Part shown: positions 5,778-25,961 of the stretch, in pieces | Numbering within the stretch: the stretch's first letter is position 1 | Layout: every line of letters begins with the position of its first letter | DNA from: a virus | Virus record (IMG/VR): IMGVR_UViG_3300030202_002927 | Location: 2,468 to 28,428 of that record | DNA length: 25,961 nt | Direction: 5' to 3' (one strand) | Program-made: the position numbers and the translations under genes | The notes under the pieces: model-generated | What the model was told of the DNA's origin: nothing | What the model saw: only the letters and a program-made list of their open reading frames with translations | Database searches by the model: none

Positions 5778-6095
5778 ATGTCATACTATAATAGATATAA
5801 AGATTTTAAAGTTAACGGGAAACCCACAACAGTACCATTAATATTACTACCTAAAAAAAGTAGTGATAGAAAAGTGGTATATAAAGTAGGTCAAAGTAGA
5901 CTAGATAAAATATCACAACAAATGTATGATACACCATATTTTGGTTGGTTAATTTTACAAGCTAATCCAGAGTACGGTGGACAAGAATGGAATATCAAAG
6001 ACGGAAGAATATTAAGGATACCATTTCCACTAACAGTTAGTTTACAAGATTATAAAAGTGAATTAGATAAACATTTCTTATATTATGGCAGATGA
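5778..6095 (+). CDS. Baseplate wedge protein, gp53-like with LysM-type fold
   Basis: The protein has 105 residues. The core at ~35-85 reads as a LysM-like module: 'YKVGQSRLDKISQQMY', then 'FGWLILQANP' and 'IKDGRILRIPFP'. This is the pattern of T4 gp53 and P2 gpX-type baseplate proteins, where the LysM-like fold binds other baseplate subunits rather than cell wall. In T4, gp53 joins neighbouring wedges around the hub. It is shorter than T4 gp53 (about 196 residues). It sits directly before the hub gene, as 53 precedes 5 in T4. Its last 11 bases overlap the start of the hub gene (ATGGCAGATGA), which suggests coupled translation. Confidence 0.75.
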   Translation: MSYYNRYKDFKVNGKPTTVPLILLPKKSSDRKVVYKVGQSRLDKISQQMYDTPYFGWLILQANPEYGGQEWNIKDGRILRIPFPLTVSLQDYKSELDKHFLYYGR

Positions 6096-9000
6096 TATCG
6101 TTAATGGTGGCCAAAACGTACACACAACACATGTAGCGGACAATCTAATCCTAATAGACCCTAATAAAGTGCAAACTAGAATGGGGGTGGAGGATAGGTT
6201 AGTTAGACATGAAGATTTGGTGATGTACGTCAATTTAACGGCTAGAATAATACCTAGGTCTAAAATATTGGTTACTGAAGGTAATTCAGATAGTGATGTT
6301 AAAGTAGATTTGTTTGCTGGTCAGATAAATTTTCTTAAACCAGGTGGTAAAAAATCTTTAGATAGTGATTGGACAGACGCTTTTACCGACCCAGGTATTA
6401 ATAAAGTAGTGAGAAATGAAGAGATAGATGATGAAGGCAGTATGTTTATTTCTAAGACAATTGAAAACAAAACAGACTTTCATGGGTTCGGTATTAAAAA
6501 TATAGATATAAAACAAAACGCTTCTTTTATACCAGAAGTAACTATAAACTTTGTGGATGTAAGGGGGATGACCCTTTTTGAACAAGGAGATACAGCCTCC
6601 CCATATACAGCCTTTTTTCATTTACCTTATCCTGTTTTTGAACTAACAGTAAAGGGATATTACGGTAAAGGAGTAAGGTACCAATTAGCTCTTACTAATT
6701 TTAATGCTAGTTTTGACGCATCTAGTGGTGATTACAATGTTACAGCAAATTTTATAGGTAATCACGTTGCATTATTAAATGATATAAAAATGCAACAAGC
6801 GATGATAGCTCCATATCTTTATCCGTCTTTAGGTTCGGAAAACGCTAGTACAGAAGAGTCAGCAAATGGTTTAGGAAGAAATATCATGAATGAGGTTTAT
6901 GGTATATATAAGAAGTTAGGTCTTATACAAAAAGATTTCCCAAACCTAACAATATACGAACTAACAAATAAAGTTAATAATTTTACCAATAAGCTATCAC
7001 AAAAACTAACACAAGCAGATTTAGAATTTACAGATAATCAGAGAAAATATCAGGACAAGCTAAATGATTTTTATAACGCAATCTTTGGTACTCAAGGATG
7101 GATATCTGAATATTTAAATGAAAATGGTAGATTATTGAACAGTACAAGCAATGGCAATAGTATATCTTTTACAGCTTATAAGTTAAAAAATGTTGCTGAT
7201 GATGGTAGTAATCTTGAAGAAGCAATTATTAATGCTGAGGCTAAATTAAAGATGGTAATAGAAGGATATAAAAAAATACTATCTGAAAACCCAACATTTG
7301 GAAAAAACAAAGGAGAATCTTCAGTCGAATTAATAGATGAGTTTAAAGTGGAGAATCAAAGAGCAACAGCTAACCAAGCAAAAAATTTACAAGATATCGA
7401 CTCTAAAGGGTGGTATGTACTTGATGTTAGTCCTATAAGTTTTGGTGGTGTACACGCAAGTGTGTTAAAACAATTTGAAAAAAAATATAATCAAAAACAG
7501 GTAGAAGTCACAGAGAAACTTAATGATACCTTTATAGATGTTTTAGAGTTTTACCCATCTATTAGAAATTTAACAGCGGTAGTGATGGCTGGTGTTGATA
7601 CTTACTTAAGAGTTATGGATAAGGTCCATACAGACGCATACAAACAAAAATCAAACCCATTAAGAGTTAAGGCTGTTACAGGTCCAGACAAAGCCGCATT
7701 CCAAGATACAAAAGACGGTCTAAAAGAATGTTTTCCTTGGCCTCAATATTATGAAGAAGATATAAACACTAGAGAGTTAGTTCTAAAATACCCAGGAGCG
7801 GCTGGAAGTCTATCCAAAACAAAAGCTATGGATAAAAAGTTGTGGCCTGAAGTTGGATTTGTAGAGGAATATACAAAAGCAATGAATTTTAGGAAAACAG
7901 AAATGGTTTTTCCAGTAACCAACCAAAAGTTATATTTAGGAAGTGCCCCAATATCAGTTAGGGAGTTTCCTTTTACCACTAAAGTATATGACCCACTTAA
8001 AAGTAAAAATGAGATTTTATGGGAGATACTAGATAGAGCTATAGATTTTGTTAATTATGTTGGTGTTGTTGGATTTAAACCAACTACACAAAAACAAAAT
8101 ATGGTTGATGTGGTTATACAAGCAGCGTCAAACGATTGTAAAAATTTACAAAAAGCTATAGAAAACGATTATACATTAAATGAGTTTTTTAATAGTAATA
8201 ATTTAAATTATAATGGATTACTACAAGAATTAAAAAATAATTCCAGAGAACAATTCTTACTTTGGAAATGTGGACATATTAACACACCATACTTAAATCA
8301 AAGAAATCTAGGAAATACACAAAATAGTTTTGGGTTATTTGCTTCTGATGTGGTATTTTCTACATTAGTAGATGATGGCCCTATAGTAAAATATATAGAT
8401 TTATATACTAAAACTAAAAAATCAGGGTTTGGTTTGTGGGATACTTACCCTTACAATGCAAATAATAATGCTTTACCTAACAAGTTAGCAGATGGAGAAA
8501 AGATAACACAACAAAAATTTTATGAAATAAACGAACTTCATATACCGGCTACCTCCAGAGTTTATGCCACAACCAATCATCACCTATATTTTACTAATTG
8601 GAATTGGGATGTTAACAAACAAGATACTTTTGATGTTACTGATAAAACATTGAGTGAATTACCAGTAATAAAAACATTCACAACTAAAGGTAATTGGTCC
8701 AGTTTTTACCAAACTAAACAAAATATTTTACAACAATCATTAACTGATGGGATAAACAACTTATCCGGTTTAAAACAATCAATATCCATGTTAAACACCC
8801 CATGGTTTTCTAATGCTATATACAAAGGAGTGATTAATGAAAATACAAACCCTAACGGTGTTGGGCAATATGCTGAAGCCGCATACTTATATCTTAATTC
8901 ATTACCAATAACAAGTCCACTTGAAAAAGTTATAAAAGACTTTGATGGTAAGAATCAATATGGGGCATATGCAGGACAGTTAATCAAACAATTAGCTGCT

Positions 9001-12000
9001 TATCATGAACTACCATATAGCTTTGTTCTAAAATTAGGTTCTTTATGGTGGGCAAATAGTGCAGCTACATCACCAAACAACTCTGTATTTGGTGGGTTAG
9101 GTACTGGAGATGGTGGTGGAACTGGTGAGGACGGTAATGATAGGTGTAATGAATGGTTTGTAGACACTGGTCAGGCAAATGGACAAGGATGGTATGACTA
9201 TACTAGTGGGGGTAACACACTACCAGGATTAAATACCGAACAACAAACCTTAGGTTTATGGCCTAGATTAATAGACATGACCCACCAAGCTATAACAGGT
9301 AAAAAGATATTACCTAATGTTGGTTCTTGGACACCAGTCCCAGACGTAGCAAGTAATTTTATAGGTGGTTTTACTTTAAGTTTGATAAAAGAAACAGGGT
9401 TACATTTTTCAAAGGAAGGGATAGATTATGATTTTTATACGACTTTTGTTGATTCATCTAATATTGGTTCAGCTGGCCATCCAGATATAGACCCAGTTCA
9501 AAACCCTTATTATATACTTTACCCATCTATTGGTGGTTTAGTGAATTCTGATTTAGAGTACATGGAAGAAAATATTTCTACAGCTGGTTTTGACGGTAGT
9601 GCTAGATTTCTATGGGCAGGTGCGGGATACGGAGCTTTTGACGTTAGTGTTCCCGGTAAACCACTACAATATGGAGCGATATACGGTAGAGTACCCTGGA
9701 CTAACTATTTTAAAAAATTACAATTCAACCAACCAGAACAAGACGCGTGGAACATTAACTTTACTGACGACACAAATAATTTAACACAATATGAAGATTT
9801 TACTGAACTATTAGCTATATTTCCAAAACAAGTTTTAGACAAATTTGCACAAGAGTTTATGAACTTTTCCTCACCTTCAAATCCAGATGGTAAAATAGTA
9901 TTAGGTCAATACAAGAATTTTAAATCTATCTTTAAAGATATTATGGTGGTATTGAAGAAAGATGTAGATGAGATGTTCCCAAACTCTAATTCACACACCA
10001 CTCAACAAATTGGGGAAACACAATATAAAAACTTTATTAAAACAACCTCTATATTTCTAAACCAACAGGTTGTATACAAACATGGTTCTGTGAACGGCTT
10101 CGATATAGTAACAACATTTAATGGTGCAGAAGTAAGTACTATAGAAATATTACTACAATTACACAAATCCAATCAAGGTATAACTGCAAATTCTGACCCA
10201 TTAGCTTTAAAAGATTGTATGACATTTCCATCTTATGACGCTTCTTTATATCCAGGTGGAGCAACCACCCCATCATTTGTGACCTTAATATCTGATTGGA
10301 TAATCCCAACACTAGAAGTGGGTGTTAATACACAATTTACACAATCAGCAACTATTTGTTTCGATTTCTTTGTTAACTTTAACATATCACCTACACTGGT
10401 AAAAGAATTTGCACCAATTTTAAAATTCTATCTAACTTTGAGTAAACAAAGTTCTTCACCGAATACCGGGGTAAGTAAACAAAACTTTGTAAGTGTTATT
10501 GATGCTTTATTTAAAAATTTAAATGGTTCAGTAGAACAATATGTTGATACATTCCTAAAAGAAGCGGCAAAGATAGACCCACTAGCTAAACTTAGAGATA
10601 AACAGACTGTTAATGGTGACGATAGACCAGAAGTTATCGCTGATAACCTTAAATTAGAACTATACCAAAGTTTTAAAACATTTAATGATAAATGGATATC
10701 AGGAATAAAAGTACAAGGAGAGAGTACTCGTTATCCATCACCTACCAGTAATAGGGTAATAACGTCATTTAATACACAGTTCGAAAGATTTTTATTTTTA
10801 GATAGAAGAAATGTTGATATTGGGGATGAAGCTGTAGTAGATATTTATCTATTCGCCGGCCTAGATAGTCCATTCTCAACAGAAGCGGATACTTCGGTTA
10901 AACAAAATATAACGAGTTTTATAAGTCAAATGTGTAGTATAAATTACTTTAATTTTATACCATTACCAGCATATGTTAATTTTTATAATGTTGAGAACAA
11001 TAATACAGCAGCACAAGGAAATGCTTTATTTGGGACATTTAAAGAAGTAGATATAACTTTATCCTCACCAAAGTACCTATGTCAGTATATTGGGCCACCA
11101 TCAACAAATCTTAATATAAAGACACCAACATACGGATATAATAACGATTCTTTTATCACTAATAGAACATCACCAAATCCGTTATTATCTCCAGTAACTA
11201 AAGACACTAATTTACAACTAAATAATAAAGTAGTAGCGTTTGCGGTAGATTTCGGAATACCAAATCAAAATGTATTTGAAAGTATTAGTTTAGACCAAAC
11301 AGAATTTCCAAACACTAGTGAGTCTTTCAAAATTATTGAAGATATGGGTAAAATGGCAAGTGGTTCAAAGGTTTCTACGAATTCTCTTAATCTTTTTAAT
11401 CTTTATAAATCACGGTCTTATAAATGTAGTGTAAGTTGTATGGGTAATGCTTTAATACAACCAACAACATATTTTGAGTTAAGGTACGTTCCTATGTTTA
11501 GTGGACCTTATCTTATTATAGATGTAAGTCATACTATATCCCCAAATAATATGGAAACTAATTTTACTGGGGTTAGAGTAGGAATACCAAGCCTACCTAA
11601 GGTTACAGATTTACTAGCAAAACTTAAGGATACACTATTAAAAACATTACCAACAGAAACTAAACAAACAGAAACCAACCAACTAGGGTTAGATGAAGAA
11701 AATCTAACTAGAACACAAATTGATAGAGGTTCCTATAATGATGAAATAGATAAAAAAGAAATTGAGAAGTTAGGTATTGATGTTATGGACCCAGTTAATT
11801 TAAGTAAAGTTGTAAAACCAACATCAGAACAACTCTATAATGCTGGAAGAAGTGATGGTTATGTGCATAAAGGGATAGACTATTCCCCAAGTCCTGAATT
11901 TGAGGACACTAAAATTGACGTAGTATCACCAACTGGTGGTGTGATAAAACATATAGCAAGTGGTTGTGTCGCTGGAATAAAAGAATGTGGTGAAGGTCCT

Positions 12001-12321
12001 GGGTATGCCGGTCTAGGTAACCATATAGTAATTGAAAGAGTTATATTAGAAAAAGGTAAGAGTGGATGGGAACCCGGTAAAGTATCCAGGTATCAATTTG
12101 TATTAGCACACATGAAAGATAAAGAATTTACAACAGAGGTTGTTGGTAACGCTATTAAACAAAGTGTAAAGATTGGTGTTATGGGTAATACTGGAAATTC
12201 TTCAGGTATACACTTACATTATGAAATAAGAAGATTTGTCATAACTGAGTCATTATCAGAAAGAATGCAGTATTTAAATCCAGACAAGTTTAGTAGTGAA
12301 TATTTAAGTGATGTACAATAA
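6085..12321 (+). CDS. Giant baseplate hub protein with C-terminal M23 peptidase
   Basis: The protein has 2078 residues. Residues ~150-230 ('PEVTINFVDVRG', 'FHLPYPVFELTVKGYYG', 'DYNVTANFIG') and ~1778-1838 ('QPTTYFELRYVPMFSGPYLI', 'DVSHTISPNNMETNFTGV') resemble the tube-like domains of baseplate hubs (gp27/gpD type). The C-terminus (~1905-2065) is an M23 (LytM-like) metallopeptidase: H1928 and D1932 in HKGID, H2009 in LAHM, and H2043/H2045 in HLHYE. H1928, D1932 and H2045 would bind zinc; H2009 and H2043 fit the catalytic histidines. It would cut peptide cross-links in host peptidoglycan during entry, like the lysozyme domain of T4 gp5. The middle (~260-1750) is unrecognised apart from a Gly-rich linker at ~1005-1020. 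The overlap with the gp53-like gene supports this start. Confidence 0.8.
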   Translation: MADDIVNGGQNVHTTHVADNLILIDPNKVQTRMGVEDRLVRHEDLVMYVNLTARIIPRSKILVTEGNSDSDVKVDLFAGQINFLKPGGKKSLDSDWTDAFTDPGINKVVRNEEIDDEGSMFISKTIENKTDFHGFGIKNIDIKQNASFIPEVTINFVDVRGMTLFEQGDTASPYTAFFHLPYPVFELTVKGYYGKGVRYQLALTNFNASFDASSGDYNVTANFIGNHVALLNDIKMQQAMIAPYLYPSLGSENASTEESANGLGRNIMNEVYGIYKKLGLIQKDFPNLTIYELTNKVNNFTNKLSQKLTQADLEFTDNQRKYQDKLNDFYNAIFGTQGWISEYLNENGRLLNSTSNGNSISFTAYKLKNVADDGSNLEEAIINAEAKLKMVIEGYKKILSENPTFGKNKGESSVELIDEFKVENQRATANQAKNLQDIDSKGWYVLDVSPISFGGVHASVLKQFEKKYNQKQVEVTEKLNDTFIDVLEFYPSIRNLTAVVMAGVDTYLRVMDKVHTDAYKQKSNPLRVKAVTGPDKAAFQDTKDGLKECFPWPQYYEEDINTRELVLKYPGAAGSLSKTKAMDKKLWPEVGFVEEYTKAMNFRKTEMVFPVTNQKLYLGSAPISVREFPFTTKVYDPLKSKNEILWEILDRAIDFVNYVGVVGFKPTTQKQNMVDVVIQAASNDCKNLQKAIENDYTLNEFFNSNNLNYNGLLQELKNNSREQFLLWKCGHINTPYLNQRNLGNTQNSFGLFASDVVFSTLVDDGPIVKYIDLYTKTKKSGFGLWDTYPYNANNNALPNKLADGEKITQQKFYEINELHIPATSRVYATTNHHLYFTNWNWDVNKQDTFDVTDKTLSELPVIKTFTTKGNWSSFYQTKQNILQQSLTDGINNLSGLKQSISMLNTPWFSNAIYKGVINENTNPNGVGQYAEAAYLYLNSLPITSPLEKVIKDFDGKNQYGAYAGQLIKQLAAYHELPYSFVLKLGSLWWANSAATSPNNSVFGGLGTGDGGGTGEDGNDRCNEWFVDTGQANGQGWYDYTSGGNTLPGLNTEQQTLGLWPRLIDMTHQAITGKKILPNVGSWTPVPDVASNFIGGFTLSLIKETGLHFSKEGIDYDFYTTFVDSSNIGSAGHPDIDPVQNPYYILYPSIGGLVNSDLEYMEENISTAGFDGSARFLWAGAGYGAFDVSVPGKPLQYGAIYGRVPWTNYFKKLQFNQPEQDAWNINFTDDTNNLTQYEDFTELLAIFPKQVLDKFAQEFMNFSSPSNPDGKIVLGQYKNFKSIFKDIMVVLKKDVDEMFPNSNSHTTQQIGETQYKNFIKTTSIFLNQQVVYKHGSVNGFDIVTTFNGAEVSTIEILLQLHKSNQGITANSDPLALKDCMTFPSYDASLYPGGATTPSFVTLISDWIIPTLEVGVNTQFTQSATICFDFFVNFNISPTLVKEFAPILKFYLTLSKQSSSPNTGVSKQNFVSVIDALFKNLNGSVEQYVDTFLKEAAKIDPLAKLRDKQTVNGDDRPEVIADNLKLELYQSFKTFNDKWISGIKVQGESTRYPSPTSNRVITSFNTQFERFLFLDRRNVDIGDEAVVDIYLFAGLDSPFSTEADTSVKQNITSFISQMCSINYFNFIPLPAYVNFYNVENNNTAAQGNALFGTFKEVDITLSSPKYLCQYIGPPSTNLNIKTPTYGYNNDSFITNRTSPNPLLSPVTKDTNLQLNNKVVAFAVDFGIPNQNVFESISLDQTEFPNTSESFKIIEDMGKMASGSKVSTNSLNLFNLYKSRSYKCSVSCMGNALIQPTTYFELRYVPMFSGPYLIIDVSHTISPNNMETNFTGVRVGIPSLPKVTDLLAKLKDTLLKTLPTETKQTETNQLGLDEENLTRTQIDRGSYNDEIDKKEIEKLGIDVMDPVNLSKVVKPTSEQLYNAGRSDGYVHKGIDYSPSPEFEDTKIDVVSPTGGVIKHIASGCVAGIKECGEGPGYAGLGNHIVIERVILEKGKSGWEPGKVSRYQFVLAHMKDKEFTTEVVGNAIKQSVKIGVMGNTGNSSGIHLHYEIRRFVITESLSERMQYLNPDKFSSEYLSDVQ

Positions 12322-18720: not shown

Positions 18721-20640
18721 ATGGAGATTTCAAACAAAATTTTATCGGATATTACTGTTCATATGAAATATGCAAAATACCTTCCGAATTTAGAAAGACG
18801 AGAAACTTGGGAAGAACTAGTAACAAGGAATAAAAATATGCACATAAAAAAATACCCACATCTAAGGGATGAAATAGAACAGAAATATAAATTGGTATAT
18901 GATAAAAAAGTTTTACCATCAATGCGTTCTATGCAATTTGGTGGAAAACCAATTGAGATATCTCCTAATAGGATTTATAATTGTGCTTACCTACCTATTG
19001 ACCATGTAGATTCGTTTAGTGAAACAATGTTTCTATTATTAGGAGGAACAGGAGTTGGATATTCGGTACAAAAACATCACGTCGCTAAGTTACCAGTAAT
19101 TCAAAAACCATACCCAAAAAGAAAGAAAAGATTTTTAATTGGAGACTCAATTGAAGGTTGGGCAGATTCTATTAAAGTTCTTATGAAATCATTTATGAAT
19201 GGTGGGGGAAGTAGGGTAGAGTTTGATTTTTCTGACATTAGACCAAAAGGAGCTCGATTAATTACATCTGGGGGAAAAGCTCCAGGACCACAACCACTAA
19301 AAGAATGTTTGGTTAAGATAGAAGGCATCCTTTCACAAAAAGAAAACGGAGAACAACTATCAACACTAGAAGTACACGATATTATATGTTATATAGCAGA
19401 CGCAGTATTAGCCGGAGGTATTAGAAGAGCTGCCTTAATTAGTTTATTTAGTGCAGATGATGACGCGATGATTGGTTGTAAAGCGGGGAATTGGTGGGAA
19501 TTGAACCCACAGAGAGGTAGAGCTAACAACTCAGCTTGTTTAATGAGACATAAGATAACTAAGGAGTTTTTTATGGAGTTATGGAAACGTGTTGAATTAT
19601 CAGGAGCGGGTGAACCAGGAATCTATCTAAACAATGACAAAGATTGGGGAACTAACCCATGTTGTGAAATTGCACTAAGACCATATCAATTCTGTAATCT
19701 TTGTGAAGTAAATGTGTCAAATATTGAGTCACAAGATGACCTAAATGAAAGAGTTAAAACGGCATCATTCATTGGAACGCTTCAAGCAGGATATACATCC
19801 TTTCATTATTTAAGAGAAATATGGCAAGAGACAACAGAGAAAGATGCACTTATAGGTGTGTCAATGACAGGTATAGGTTCTGGTAAGGTTCTTGGGTTTG
19901 ATATGAAAAAAGCTGCAAGTCTGGTAAAAAGAGAAAATACAAGAGTTGCAAAACTATTAGAAATAAATCAAGCAGCTAGAACAACCACAGTAAAACCTGC
20001 AGGAACAACTTCTTTAGCATTAGGAACTAGTTCAGGTATTCATGCATGGCATAATGATTACTACATTAGAAGAGTTAGAGTTGGTAAAAATGAATCTATT
20101 TATGTTTATTTAAGTGTTAATCATCCAGAGTTACTAGAAGATGATTATTTTAGACCACACGATACTGCTGTAATTAGTATACCACAAAAAGCACCTAAAG
20201 GTTCTATACTAAGAACAGAATCACCTTTTGAGTTATTAGAAAGAGTAAAAAAAGTAGCAAGTGAATGGGTACGTTCAGGACACAGAAAGGGTTCAAACTC
20301 TCATAATGTTTCTGCAACAATTTCATTAAGAGACCATGAGTGGGACCCAGCAGGAGAATGGATGTGGGAAAACAGAAAACACTATAATGGATTATCCGTC
20401 CTTCCTTATGATGGAGGGACATACATCCAAGCTCCATTTGAAGATATTGAAGAAGAAAAATATAATGAAATGATAAAATCATTACATAATATTGACTTAA
20501 CAAAAGTAATAGAGTTAGAAGATAACACTGATTTGTCTGGTGAATTGGCTTGTGCCGGTGGAACCTGTGAAATTGATGTCGATTTAAAATCTTTAAACAC
20601 AAATGGCACCAAAGAAGAAGTTAGTGAAACACAAATATAG
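18721..20640 (+). CDS. nrdJ: Adenosylcobalamin-dependent (class II) ribonucleotide reductase
   Basis: The protein has 639 residues. It reduces ribonucleotides to deoxyribonucleotides for phage DNA synthesis, using a thiyl radical made from adenosylcobalamin. Key residues match the monomeric Lactobacillus leichmannii enzyme: N312, C314 and E316 in NPCCEI correspond to N406, C408 and E410; C325 corresponds to C419; C88 ('YNCAYLP') to C119. The C-terminal redox pair CxxxxC is present in 'LACAGGTCEID'. The phosphate-binding segment 'PAGTTSLALGTSSGIH' is intact. It is ~100 residues shorter than the 739-residue Lactobacillus protein, so some allosteric or insertion elements may be reduced. The class II type works with or without oxygen but needs host cobalamin. 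Its last 38 bases overlap the following zinc-ribbon gene. No class I small subunit is seen. Confidence 0.88.
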   Translation: MEISNKILSDITVHMKYAKYLPNLERRETWEELVTRNKNMHIKKYPHLRDEIEQKYKLVYDKKVLPSMRSMQFGGKPIEISPNRIYNCAYLPIDHVDSFSETMFLLLGGTGVGYSVQKHHVAKLPVIQKPYPKRKKRFLIGDSIEGWADSIKVLMKSFMNGGGSRVEFDFSDIRPKGARLITSGGKAPGPQPLKECLVKIEGILSQKENGEQLSTLEVHDIICYIADAVLAGGIRRAALISLFSADDDAMIGCKAGNWWELNPQRGRANNSACLMRHKITKEFFMELWKRVELSGAGEPGIYLNNDKDWGTNPCCEIALRPYQFCNLCEVNVSNIESQDDLNERVKTASFIGTLQAGYTSFHYLREIWQETTEKDALIGVSMTGIGSGKVLGFDMKKAASLVKRENTRVAKLLEINQAARTTTVKPAGTTSLALGTSSGIHAWHNDYYIRRVRVGKNESIYVYLSVNHPELLEDDYFRPHDTAVISIPQKAPKGSILRTESPFELLERVKKVASEWVRSGHRKGSNSHNVSATISLRDHEWDPAGEWMWENRKHYNGLSVLPYDGGTYIQAPFEDIEEEKYNEMIKSLHNIDLTKVIELEDNTDLSGELACAGGTCEIDVDLKSLNTNGTKEEVSETQI

Positions 20641-21261: not shown

Positions 21262-21768
21262 ATGACAATAGCAGCAACAAGATACGGTATAGCTTTTCCT
21301 TTCAATAACAGTGAGAGTGGTTTATTTTTAAAAACAACCACTACACCAGCTGAGGAAATTAAAACAGATTTAGTACACCTTATATTAACTAGAAAGGGGT
21401 CTAGATATTTTTTACCTGATTTCGGTACAAGATTGTATGAATATATATTTGAACCTATGGATAGTACAACGTATAAAGCTATAGATTCAGAATTAAGAGA
21501 TGTAATAGGAAAATACATTCCTAATGTAGTAGTTAATGAAATAAAAATCCAAAGTTTAGAGGACGTTAGAGAAGAAGAGGCACAAACAAAAGCATCTAAT
21601 CACCCATCGATAGTTAGTAAAGATAACGCTTTAGACAACGATTTAGATGATAGGATATATAGAGTAGCAGGTGACGGAGCGGAAGAATATACAGCAAAGA
21701 TTTTTATAGATTATAGCATAAAAGACGATATCTTTGGTGCTAGAGACTTTATAATTATAAATTTATAA
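21262..21768 (+). CDS. Baseplate wedge protein, gp25-like (GPW/gp25 family)
   Basis: The protein has 168 residues, a little longer than T4 gp25 (132). The family core is clear: 'EEIKTDLVHLILTRKGSRYF', 'PDFGTRLYEYIFEPMD' and 'YKAIDSELRDVIGKYIPNVVVNEI'. In contractile tails gp25 sits in the inner baseplate, binds gp6 and gp53, and its end starts polymerisation of the sheath. The stretch after ~100 ('EEEAQTKASNHPSIVSKDNA') is an extra acidic loop before the final strands. The ATG follows a 24-base gap with the TATTTAT motif, and the gp6-like gene follows one base after its stop, the usual pairing. Confidence 0.88.
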   Translation: MTIAATRYGIAFPFNNSESGLFLKTTTTPAEEIKTDLVHLILTRKGSRYFLPDFGTRLYEYIFEPMDSTTYKAIDSELRDVIGKYIPNVVVNEIKIQSLEDVREEEAQTKASNHPSIVSKDNALDNDLDDRIYRVAGDGAEEYTAKIFIDYSIKDDIFGARDFIIINL

Positions 21769-21769
21769 T

Positions 21770-23611
21770 ATGGCAGAGAAAAAAATAGCATACACAGAAA
21801 GAGATTTTCTAGGGTTAAGGAACGAGTTACTTAGACTAACAAACACCTATTACCCAAATCTAATAAAAAACTCTAATGACGCATCAATATATTCAGTATT
21901 TTTAGATTTAAATGCGGCTGTAGCAGACAACCTACATTATTCTATTGATAGAACTTTACAAGAAACCGTATTACAATTTGCACAAGAAAGAAGTTCATTA
22001 TTTAATATAGCTAGAACTTATGGATTAAAAATACCAGGAAATAGACCTTCTATAACTCTTTGTGACCTATCTATTATTGTCCCAGCTTTAGGTGATAAAG
22101 AAGACTTTAGGTATTTAGGGTTTCTTAGAAGAAACGCTCAAGTTAGGGGTGGTGGACAGGTATTTGAGTTATTAAATGATTGTGACTTTTCATCACCATA
22201 TTCTGTAGATGGTGCACCAAATAGAACAAAAATACCAAATTTTAACGCTAATGGAATCATTCAAAATTATACCATAACTAAAAGAGAGGTTGTAGTTAAT
22301 GGTGTTACTAGAGTGTTTAAGAAAGAAATAACAGAAATTGACAACAAACCATTTTTAAAAATATTTCTTCCAGAAAGAAATGTTTTAGGGGTTACTTCAG
22401 TAATAGAAAAAGAAGGTTTAGGTTATACAACCTTACCATCTAGTTTAGAGTTTATAACAGCAAGAGATAATAAGTGGCATGAAATGCATGCTTTAGCAGA
22501 ATCAGAGGTTTTTGAAATAGACCAGTCCACACCACCAGATGAACCAGGATTAAAAGTTGGGAAGTATACTCTAACTGATAATAGATTTGTTACGGAATAC
22601 ACACCAGAGGGGTTTTTCTTTTTAACATTTGGTAGTGGAAATAATGATTCACAAAAATTACTAAACGAATTTTCAAAATTTAATATAAAGGTACAACCAA
22701 ATAAGATTATAAATAATGTATCATTGGGTTCTATGGTACAACCTAATAGAACACTATTTGTCCAGTATAGGGTTGGTGGTGGTAAAGCTTCTAATCTAGG
22801 AGCTGGTGCGATAAATTCATTAGGTACTATTGATTTTGTAGTTTCTGGTCCAGTATCTACCATAAACAGTAGTGTTGTTGGTAGTTTAAAAGTAACTAAT
22901 GTAACTTCAGCTTTAGGTGGTGATGACCAGATGTCTACTGAGGAAGTTAGGAATTATGTATCATTTAATTTTGCAGCACAAAATAGAGCTGTAACTATAA
23001 ACGATTATGTCGCGAGAGTAAGAACAATGCCATCACAGTTTGGTGCAGCTGCTAAGGTGGGTGTTACTGAGATTGAAAATAAAGTAAAAATTAGTGTCTT
23101 ATCTTATAATTCAGACGGCACATTAACCTCTAGTGTAAGTTCTACGTTAAAAAATAATATAGCTGAATACCTATCAAACTATAGAATGTTAAATGACTAT
23201 ATAGAAATTTCATCAGCTAAAGTAATAGACCTAAGTTTTGATATAGATTTAGTCATCACCAATGATGTCAATCAAGGACAAGTTGTTAGTAACGCAATAA
23301 ACAGTGTAAAAGAATTTTTTGATATAGACTCTAACGAATTAGGTCTTACAATAAATTTAAGTGAGTTATACAGTAAGGTTTCCCAACAACCAGGTGTTTT
23401 AAATGTTATAGACATAAGGGTGTTTAATGAGATAGGTAATGGGTACTCAAACTCCACAATAAGTCAACCATTAAAAAGTGGTACTAACAGGCAATTACAG
23501 ATAAGTGACCAAACAATATTCTTTATGCCCGACGAGATGCCACAAATCAGAAAACCAGATACTGATATTCGTGTTAGGGTTAAACAAATAAATCGAGCAA
23601 ACATTTCGTAA
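21770..23611 (+). CDS. Baseplate wedge protein, gp6-like (baseplate J family)
   Basis: The protein has 613 residues, close to T4 gp6 (660). The N-terminus 'YTERDFLGLRNELLRLTNTYYP' and 'FLDLNAAVADNLHYSIDRTLQET' is the typical opening of gp6/J-type proteins. The central region (~300-420) has 'VQYRVGGGKASNLGAGAIN' and 'GGDDQMSTEEVRNYVSFNFAAQNRAVTI'-type sequence, the conserved J core, followed by 'DYVARVRTMPSQFGAA'. gp6 dimers form the ring that ties the six wedges together around the hub and change shape when the sheath contracts. The gene follows gp25 with one base between, and a 73-base gap follows it. No enzyme motif is seen. Confidence 0.88.
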   Translation: MAEKKIAYTERDFLGLRNELLRLTNTYYPNLIKNSNDASIYSVFLDLNAAVADNLHYSIDRTLQETVLQFAQERSSLFNIARTYGLKIPGNRPSITLCDLSIIVPALGDKEDFRYLGFLRRNAQVRGGGQVFELLNDCDFSSPYSVDGAPNRTKIPNFNANGIIQNYTITKREVVVNGVTRVFKKEITEIDNKPFLKIFLPERNVLGVTSVIEKEGLGYTTLPSSLEFITARDNKWHEMHALAESEVFEIDQSTPPDEPGLKVGKYTLTDNRFVTEYTPEGFFFLTFGSGNNDSQKLLNEFSKFNIKVQPNKIINNVSLGSMVQPNRTLFVQYRVGGGKASNLGAGAINSLGTIDFVVSGPVSTINSSVVGSLKVTNVTSALGGDDQMSTEEVRNYVSFNFAAQNRAVTINDYVARVRTMPSQFGAAAKVGVTEIENKVKISVLSYNSDGTLTSSVSSTLKNNIAEYLSNYRMLNDYIEISSAKVIDLSFDIDLVITNDVNQGQVVSNAINSVKEFFDIDSNELGLTINLSELYSKVSQQPGVLNVIDIRVFNEIGNGYSNSTISQPLKSGTNRQLQISDQTIFFMPDEMPQIRKPDTDIRVRVKQINRANIS

Positions 23612-23684: not shown

Positions 23685-25961
23685 ATGCCAAAAAACTTAA
23701 GAATTAGAACCCAGGTTGGTGTAGACAAGGAAGTTACATTAGATTTGAATCAGGATTTTGATATGTTGGAGATTTTAAGTCTCAATCTTCATCAGACAGA
23801 TGTCTACCCAAAAGACTGTGCAAATTTTGGTGTGGTAGTTGGTAGGGTGCTAGCTAATGGTGGTTTTGGCGTACCTAACGCTAAGGTTTCTATATTTGTA
23901 CCTTTAGACGATAAGGACACAGAAAACCCAATGATACAGTCACTATACCCTTATAAAACACAAGGTTATAGAACAGAAGATGGGTTTAGATATAACCTAC
24001 TACCATCAACCCCAAGTTACAAAGGGCACATCCCTACTGGAAATTTTCCTAAACTATCCGAAGTTTTACTAAATCAAGACGTTTCTTATGTGTATGAGAA
24101 ATACTACAAGTATACAGCTAAAACTAATGCAAGTGGTGACTTTATGTTATATGGGGTACCAATAGGAGAACAAACATTAGTTATAAATGTTGATTTATCT
24201 GATATAGGGTGTTTTTCAATGACACCAGAGGATTTTAAACGTAAGGGTGAACCTAGTTCCAAATTTAACGGGGCTAAATTTAAGAGTTCATCAAACATAG
24301 ACGAATTACCACAAATAGTCACAATGTCTAGAACTATAGATATAAGACCTATGTGGGGTGATGAAGAAGCTGGATGTGGAGCTTCGATTACAAGAAGTGA
24401 TTTTGATTTAAGAGAAGCTGGCGTTGAGATTGAACCTACAGCTGTATTTATGGGTTCAGTCGCGACTGACACTGAAAAAATGTCAGTTAATAGAAATTGT
24501 AAACCTAGAGGTAGACAAGGAGAATTATGTAGACTTGCACCAACACAAGGTAGGATAGAGTCTATAAGGTTTACACCTTTTTTTAAGAAAGAAGAAGACC
24601 CGGCAAATCCAGGTAGTGGTGAACAACTAGTTCCGGTTTTACAAAGATTTGATATAGATGGTGGGTTTAATATAGATGATAATGGGGCATTTTTAATAAA
24701 CATACCTATGAATCTAGATTACTTAATAACAAATGAATTTGGTGAAAGAGTTATATCTAGAGACCCATCTGTGGGTATACCAACAAAAGCTAAACATAGA
24801 TTTAGGATTAAACCTTTAGAGGTTAAAGGTACCGCTAGACAAAGAAGAAGAGGAGCATACCTAGTTCCAAACATTAAAGAACATAATAATAATGTTGATG
24901 GTCATCATTCTGGTATTCAAGCAAATTCATATGCGTTCTCTATAGATTATTGGGATTACCCAAGCCAAGCTATAACCGGAGGTGAAATACTAGCAGCAAA
25001 AGACTATTTTTACGAGTTTAGTTATAGTAAAGTTTATACACCTACAATGTTTCACAATCATTGGAAGGCAAGAAGAAAAGATAGATTTATAGGTGTTAAA
25101 GAGGTATTACCTAGAGAAGAAAAATCTTGTGATGGACAAGCAGCTTCTTTCCCAGTAAACACAGCAAATAAAAATGTAAATTTCCCGATTGTAATAAATC
25201 AATTTGTTACTAGAATACAACAAATTTTTTACACAATAACATATATGATTTTATCTATTTTATGTGCGTTTATTAAATTTGTTAGGAATATTTTAGTTAA
25301 AATTAGGAATTTCTTTAGAGGTATTGTGTGTAAGTTATGTACATTATGGTATAGGAAGAAAAATGAAGGTAAATATTGTTATTGTTCCACATGTCCATGT
25401 ACGATGGAGAAAGAAACTACCGATTGTACTGATATATTTGGTTGTTTATTTATGAGAGTAACCAAATATCCAGAATGTGAAAAATGTATGTGTATGGATG
25501 ATGTTAGTGGTAATGGTTCAGCTGTTAATCACGGACAATACCCTGGATGTAATCAGTGGGCAGATAACCCACCAAATAAAGCTAGAGGGGTGAAGAATAA
25601 TGATTTTATGGAGTGTAGTAAACCTAATAATAAGGCCAAAAATCTAGACGCTGGATGTTACAGTTTACCTATTGGTATGGACACCATAGCTGATTTATTT
25701 TCTACAGATGGTGAAAACGGAGTAGCGTTTATTTCAGATTGGAGAAAAAGAGAGGTTCTTCTAAGGTCTATGTGTGATGGGTTAATGAATTATTTCTGGT
25801 CAAACAACTATATCGGAGGGTTCTTATATCTATTCCAGTTTAAAGCAAAATTAAAACCAAAAGAAAGTGCACCTAACGGTTATAAAGTAAAACATTGTGC
25901 GGAGGTAGTTTATTTTCACTCAGCAGACCAGGAATTTTATTATAGGTCATCACCTTATAAT
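23685..25961 (+). CDS. Large baseplate-associated protein with cysteine cluster, 3' end outside window
   Basis: The frame is open from the ATG at 23685 to the last base, giving 759 residues with no stop. Residues ~45-165 look like a carboxypeptidase-regulatory-like (transthyretin-type) beta sandwich: 'VVVGRVLANGGFGVPNAKVSIF' early and 'KTNASGDFMLYGVPIGEQTL' later. Residues ~514-533 are strongly hydrophobic ('IFYTITYMILSILCAFIKF') with basic residues after them, so they may span or bind a membrane. Residues 549-603 then hold eleven cysteines (549, 552, 565, 567, 570, 572, 581, 587, 598, 601, 603), with five more further on. Its place after gp25 and gp6 is that of gp7 in T4, a wedge protein, but no sequence likeness to gp7 is evident. 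Confidence 0.7.
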   Translation, partial: MPKNLRIRTQVGVDKEVTLDLNQDFDMLEILSLNLHQTDVYPKDCANFGVVVGRVLANGGFGVPNAKVSIFVPLDDKDTENPMIQSLYPYKTQGYRTEDGFRYNLLPSTPSYKGHIPTGNFPKLSEVLLNQDVSYVYEKYYKYTAKTNASGDFMLYGVPIGEQTLVINVDLSDIGCFSMTPEDFKRKGEPSSKFNGAKFKSSSNIDELPQIVTMSRTIDIRPMWGDEEAGCGASITRSDFDLREAGVEIEPTAVFMGSVATDTEKMSVNRNCKPRGRQGELCRLAPTQGRIESIRFTPFFKKEEDPANPGSGEQLVPVLQRFDIDGGFNIDDNGAFLINIPMNLDYLITNEFGERVISRDPSVGIPTKAKHRFRIKPLEVKGTARQRRRGAYLVPNIKEHNNNVDGHHSGIQANSYAFSIDYWDYPSQAITGGEILAAKDYFYEFSYSKVYTPTMFHNHWKARRKDRFIGVKEVLPREEKSCDGQAASFPVNTANKNVNFPIVINQFVTRIQQIFYTITYMILSILCAFIKFVRNILVKIRNFFRGIVCKLCTLWYRKKNEGKYCYCSTCPCTMEKETTDCTDIFGCLFMRVTKYPECEKCMCMDDVSGNGSAVNHGQYPGCNQWADNPPNKARGVKNNDFMECSKPNNKAKNLDAGCYSLPIGMDTIADLFSTDGENGVAFISDWRKREVLLRSMCDGLMNYFWSNNYIGGFLYLFQFKAKLKPKESAPNGYKVKHCAEVVYFHSADQEFYYRSSPYN

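Follow-up and report, generated by a model that had tools for sequence, protein, structure and literature searches.

A conserved hydrophobic segment set between cysteines in a large family of environmental phage proteins encoded beside baseplate genes

The window – the whole stretch of DNA analysed, 25,961 bases corresponding to positions 2468-28428 of a 28,428-base IMG/VR record – carries genes for a gp25-like and a gp6-like baseplate wedge protein and, directly after them, an open reading frame of 759 amino acids that is still open where the contig ends (Table 1). Since the window runs to the end of the record, the gene is incomplete. We refer to its product as the window protein and use its residue numbering throughout. 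The full gene was obtained from a relative, L002 (L002:2624-6085), whose product is complete at 1,154 amino acids and 87% identical to the window protein. Comparison of the two over 757 codons gives a dN of 0.08 and a dS of 0.86; the reading frame is therefore real and under purifying selection. All 23 cysteines of the window protein are kept in L002.

The first-pass annotation drew attention to window positions 25224-25493 (residues 514-603), where a membrane-like stretch is followed by eleven cysteines. Both features are present as it described them. Residues 514-532 (IFYTITYMILSILCAFIKF) form the best 19-mer of the window protein (Kyte-Doolittle 1.89), with a Wimley-White octanol sum of -11.1 kcal/mol, and this hydropathy peak is the highest among 16 window proteins compared, the next being 1.47. 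Residues 549-603 hold exactly eleven cysteines, including CYCSTCPC and CEKCMC, and the cysteine content of the whole protein (23 residues, 3.03%) is likewise the highest among the 16. Eleven cysteines in any stretch of 55 residues arose in none of 20,000 shuffles of the window protein. The shuffles, together with the dN and dS values relative to L002, rule out both a frameshift artefact and a chance cluster of cysteines.

Table 1. Coordinates of the features discussed, as positions in the window; residue numbers are those of the window protein.
Feature	Position	Strand	Basis or remarks
gp25-like wedge protein (neighbour)	21262-21768	+	PHROG 261 (E 3e-18)
gp6 / Baseplate_J wedge protein (neighbour)	21770-23611	+	PHROG 219 (E 7e-17), PHROG 6 (E 8e-15), PF04865 (E 3e-7)
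Gene of the window protein	23685-25961	+	First 759 of about 1154 codons, truncated by contig end
N-terminal beta-sandwich region, residues 44-249, carboxypeptidase-regulatory/transthyretin-like arrangement	23814-24431	+	VIA-align, Pfam
N-terminal-half cysteines C45 (23817), C231 (24375), C272 (24498), C282 (24528)	23817-24530	+	Present in 47/47, 47/47, 46/47 and 47/47 members
C482, just ahead of the hydrophobic block	25128-25130	+	Present in 47/47 members; invariant in 59
Predicted single long helix, residues 500-558, hydrophobic core 514-532	25182-25358	+	AlphaFold2 of L002 (same numbering), hydropathy
Linker cysteines C549, C552, C565, C567, C570, C572, C581, C587	25329-25445	+	Family comparison; first six specific to the lineage of the window protein, L002 and L044
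Family signature Y-P-[DE]-C-x-x-C-x-C (YPECEKCMC; C598, C601, C603)	25467-25493	+	C598 in 47/47, C601 in 46/47, C603 in 38/47 members
C697 and C738 (C695 and C736 of L002)	25773-25898	+	Kept in 44/44 and 42/44 non-gap rows

For the N-terminal region (residues 44-249) the best VIA-align scores were Z 7.1 to teneurin and Z 6.9 to a chain of carboxypeptidase D, and the match to the Pfam family CarboxypepD_reg is weak (E 0.03, below the cut-off). The carboxypeptidase-regulatory/transthyretin-like fold is a common one. A Foldseek search of the PDB returned mainly pilins and adhesins of the Ig/TTR type, which VIA-align places on the N-terminal half. Apart from the weak CarboxypepD_reg hit, the window protein had no match among PHROGs, Pfam or PDB sequences. 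Its N-terminus (MPKNLRIRTQVG) does not have the look of a signal peptide.

In members of the family the genes run in the order gp25-like, gp6-like, homologue, a protein of about 590 amino acids, one of about 300, a fibre-like or other gene, one of 305 amino acids and one of at least 1095, and the position directly after gp6 is kept across clades. The description of a baseplate-region protein thus holds as a statement of position, given by the gp25-like and gp6-like genes upstream. One genome, G003, has an extra protein of 113 amino acids (L138:2248-2586), with a hydrophobic peak of 2.64, between gp6 and the homologue. Elsewhere in the window (6085-12321) lies a protein of 2078 amino acids whose end, near residues 1922-2068, resembles an M23 metallopeptidase; by position and size it is the tape measure.

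The third gene downstream of the homologue is itself rich in cysteines. In the G004 record of L003 it encodes 2636 amino acids with 215 cysteines, or 8.2% (L136:6453-14360), and its counterpart in L002, truncated by the contig end (L002:8837-10894), has 36 cysteines in 686 amino acids and weak matches to PKD and CBM5/12. It is probably a fibre or adhesin. In L007 the same gene (L007:12126-14309) contains GCTDSSALNYNPLATNDDGSC, which we take to be a motif of secreted Bacteroidota proteins and which may point to the host.

The first-pass annotation compared the protein with described wedge proteins, and its gene order and length do suggest the gp7/gpI identity: T4 gp7, P2 gpI and TssG are likewise encoded directly after gp6 and are about 1000-1300 amino acids long. 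Profile comparison and a separate gp7-like reading frame led us to reject this identity. An hhalign comparison of the family with gp7/gpI-type proteins gave a probability of 0.1 and an E-value of 0.73. The gp7/gpI profile weakly matches instead a separate downstream reading frame of 1100-1419 amino acids, the last in the gene order given above, in G004 (E 9.5e-7), G002 (E 2.9e-6) and G003 (E 3.9e-4); in G001, G006 and G007 the same search found no gp7-like reading frame. T4 gp7 was absent among the matches listed by Foldseek and VIA-align against the PDB, a list filled by matches to the N-terminal domain. Since the gp7-like profile matches another protein and not the family protein, the latter is, on this sequence comparison, most likely an additional component.

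An alignment-based scan confirmed at least 588 relatives among IMG/VR contigs. Searches of 50,697 phage records by tblastn with five different queries gave no homologue, and a search of 84,980 prokaryote genomes gave no confirmed one. The family profile had no match in Mel-JY01, the Flavobacterium immuto phage or LR756508 (the same profile matched four other records), and a search of RM378 and T4 with it gave no match. An uncharacterised BFVD entry from Myoviridae sp. ctPuP5, A0A8S5LA66, agrees with the family in its overall predicted fold (Foldseek E 1e-51, 947 columns, 23% identity) and, judged from that model, is almost surely a member. A remote homologue of 727 amino acids, L038:5935-8115, has neither a hydrophobic block nor the C-terminal part nor any of the invariant cysteines; L039 likewise has no block and none of C482, C598 or C601. 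As L038 is without both block and invariant cysteines, the two have been gained or lost together at such distance. The genes directly upstream of this homologue lie on the opposite strand.

Family comparison reveals that the cysteines are of two sets with different histories. Conservation was counted in 47 diverse members, and a second alignment covers the central region in 59 members including the window protein; in the latter C482, C598 and C601 are invariant. The window protein and 58 others thereby share the features that define the family, namely C482, the hydrophobic block, C598 and C601. All eleven cysteines of residues 549-603 are kept in the window protein, L002 and L044, despite variation in 39 of 65 columns (hypergeometric P 9e-6). 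In L007 the six cysteines of residues 549-572 are missing together, C581, C587 and the signature being present, and in other clades the linker between C482 and C598 carries a different set of extra cysteines. Conservation of the cysteines, which had been proposed at the outset as a check, is accordingly split: C482, C598, C601 and mostly C603 are kept, and the six linker cysteines are poorly kept outside the lineage of the window protein, L002 and L044. The presence of C603 accompanies a higher hydrophobicity of the block (77 sequences with, 25 without), but absence of C603 is confined to a single clade and so represents one event; we set the association aside as evidence.

Across the family the best 19-mer between C482 and C598 ranges from 1.3 to 3.46 on the Kyte-Doolittle scale, mostly above the value of the window protein. 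Of 75 distinct sequences, 67 pass the Eisenberg membrane threshold (0.68), the median number of charged residues being three per 54, and many relatives carry two or more membrane-grade segments. These sequence measures support a membrane-grade hydrophobic segment beside the cysteines as something that a large family has conserved, and the observation is stronger at this level than in the single sequence. The block of the window protein lies near the low, amphipathic end of the range (Eisenberg hydrophobicity 0.69, moment 0.46 at 100 degrees), so that by hydropathy its helix appears only borderline for a membrane; in the clade of L008 and L034 the block is weaker still.

AlphaFold2 predicts residues 500-558 of L002 to form one helix (model pLDDT 70, pTM 0.72; pLDDT over the block 89, falling to 68). 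In the model of the central part of L050 (mean pLDDT 66) there is a helix of 54 residues at a pLDDT of about 86-95. Burial of the stretch in an ordinary soluble domain, a possibility raised in the first-pass annotation, is seen in neither model; both have one very long helix. A continuous helix of 54-59 residues is longer than one bilayer requires, and in reality it would therefore be bent, lie along a surface or be bundled.

We propose, tentatively and with somewhat less than even confidence, that the family protein sits at the tail tip or the periphery of the baseplate and that its hydrophobic helix, which a split cysteine site would hold, enters the host envelope when the phage infects. It would be a structural protein of an uncultured T4-related lineage, with a beta-rich body and a long hydrophobic helix inserted between the halves of a cysteine site, C482 before it and Y-P-x-C-x-x-C(-x-C) after. 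A split site at the base of the insert is the simplest reading because an invariant cysteine precedes, and a C-x-x-C(-x-C) follows, an insert of very variable length. C482 and the signature cysteines would close that base, most likely by binding a metal, for instance zinc. The insert would be shielded in the free virion until a change in the shape of the baseplate releases it; it could then enter the host envelope, where it would serve as an anchor for the particle or as a lining of the entry path. The six additional linker cysteines would be a lineage-specific elaboration, forming a second metal knuckle or disulfides.

The main rival to membrane insertion is a buried oligomeric bundle, in which the helix never meets lipid, three or six copies pack together in the tail tip and the cysteines make the fold more rigid through bound zinc or disulfides. 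We consider this somewhat unlikely. It fits the predicted helix, which is continuous and not a hairpin, and the strong amphipathicity of the helix in the window protein, and it has a T4 precedent in the three-helix bundle of (gp6)2-gp7 (PMC6300606). Hydropathy alone may also deceive: T4 tail proteins peak at no more than 1.71 (Kyte-Doolittle) with the exception of gp7, which reaches 2.07 in a segment that carries the GenBank note 'predicted integral membrane domain', yet the baseplate in which gp7 is a wedge protein is soluble and its structure has been solved, so that such predictions can mislead. However, many blocks are more hydrophobic than one would expect for a soluble coiled coil, with 19-mers of 2.5-3.5 in many members and a single charge in the 54 residues of the L050 block. 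In several clades the block consists of multiple segments broken by prolines, 100-130 residues in all and freely varying in length, unlike a packed core, and the remote homologue L038 dispenses with it entirely.

Insertion might instead take place in the infected cell, the protein serving as an inner-membrane anchor during assembly of the baseplate or tail, with the cysteine region as a cytoplasmic zinc domain and with no role in entry. The membrane-grade segments agree with this, as does a basic stretch, KFVRNILVKIRNFFRGIVCKLCTLWYRKK, which the window protein has after its hydrophobic core and which is compatible with the positive-inside rule; however, the basic stretch is missing from most relatives. 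We know of no established membrane-bound step in baseplate assembly of T4-like phages, which also counts against this reading, and we judge it improbable.

We see an equally small chance that the protein is a tail adhesin, in which disulfides between the cysteines form outside the cell, the hydrophobic part acts as hinge or stalk and variable inserts bind receptors. Members do differ by large inserts of several hundred residues between the YPxCxxC signature and the C-terminal domain; a homologue of 2088 amino acids, L103:6001-12264, has DUF5122 beta-propeller repeats there (E 6e-30). In 47 of 56 distinct members the number of additional cysteines between C482 and C598 is even, a count that is suggestive only, the sequences being related, and that would fit disulfides at least as well as metal. 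The cysteine-rich, fibre-like gene downstream also agrees with an adhesin. Against this, the invariant C482, C598 and C601, with their C-x-x-C(-x-C) half, resemble a metal site more, and an adhesin leaves a hydrophobic block of 54-120 residues unexplained. That the protein is no part of the virion at all, being a phage-encoded host membrane protein (for exclusion or lysis, say) that lies in the tail operon by chance, is very improbable given its constant place after gp6, its large, beta-rich make-up with a conserved C-terminal domain, and a start unlike a signal peptide.

Among the known systems with which a helix clamped by a split cysteine site may be compared, the prePAAR effectors of the type VI secretion system (T6SS) offer a parallel in layout: their membrane segments separate two parts which, according to prediction, jointly make up a zinc-binding PAAR domain (PMC7773334). 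Like these Tse6-like proteins, the family would combine a contractile tail machine with a transmembrane region between the halves of a metal site, the metal being in our case putative. The differences are substantial: prePAAR proteins are effectors at the spike tip, marked by a PAAR domain (His/Cys), an AARxxDxxxH motif and Eag chaperones, whereas the family site consists of cysteines only and lies in mid-protein. Pfam gave no PAAR match in the family protein (only the weak CarboxypepD_reg), and the DcrB-family (Eag-type) chaperone PF08786 was not found in six records (83-176 kb, several of them fragments), in a search whose control matched in E. coli. Since neither a gp7 relationship nor the marks of a PAAR effector were found, we describe the family as possibly working like PAAR effectors and not as one of them. 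It is unlikely, though worth stating, that the family is the phage counterpart of prePAAR in the full sense: a dedicated membrane-insertion protein of the baseplate in a widespread contractile-tailed lineage, its helix clamped by a split cysteine-metal site, entering the envelope at contraction and forming or sealing the DNA entry path.

Insertion of hydrophobic parts of tail proteins into the host membrane has been proposed elsewhere, and to that extent those proteins resemble what is proposed for the family. The RcGTA baseplate paper proposes membrane insertion by the N-termini of megatrons and entry of tail-tip parts into the outer membrane (PMC7296036), and insertion is likewise attributed to the pore-forming tail loop of phi29 gp9 (PMC7296036 and its reference 50). 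Unlike the tail machine proposed here, the tails of phi29 and RcGTA are not contractile. To our knowledge neither phi29 gp9 nor the RcGTA megatrons have a cysteine bracket.

The view that virion proteins rarely have such clusters, offered at first pass, needs tempering: the gpL-like hub of RcGTA holds an Fe-S cluster on four cysteines (PMC7296036), and the fibre-like gene downstream of the family is richer still in cysteines. Lambda gpL and the RcGTA hub are tail-tip proteins in which four conserved cysteines hold a cluster, and to that extent resemble the protein proposed here. A search of PDB sequences gave no match to the family, and gpL-type folds were absent among the Foldseek matches listed, which fall mainly on the N-terminal half. 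We know of no membrane segment inside the cysteine site of either.

Hundreds of environmental tail genes thus belong to a family absent from all the phage records searched. How the tail tube of contractile phages passes or seals membranes is poorly known, and accounts of T4 speak chiefly of mechanical puncture. The conserved membrane-grade segment, in a protein encoded at the baseplate locus of a common aquatic lineage, would be a concrete, testable candidate for a membrane step, and the invariant cysteine bracket points to the residues worth testing first.

As to the phages themselves, the large terminase encoded in the 176-kb record from which L034 comes has its closest relatives in Mel-JY01 and the Flavobacterium immuto phages, followed by T4-like phages; gp6 of the window has nearest relatives of the same kind. 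Far-T4 phages abound in water, and host prediction has linked them to Bacteroidota (PMC7198788); the phages of the family may belong to this group or infect Bacteroidota. Between a DnaB-like helicase gene and the gp25-like gene the window also encodes a class II (B12-dependent) ribonucleotide reductase (18721-20640). Its identity to the enzyme of Microcystis phage Mel-JY01 is 68%, a much closer match than the tail genes show.
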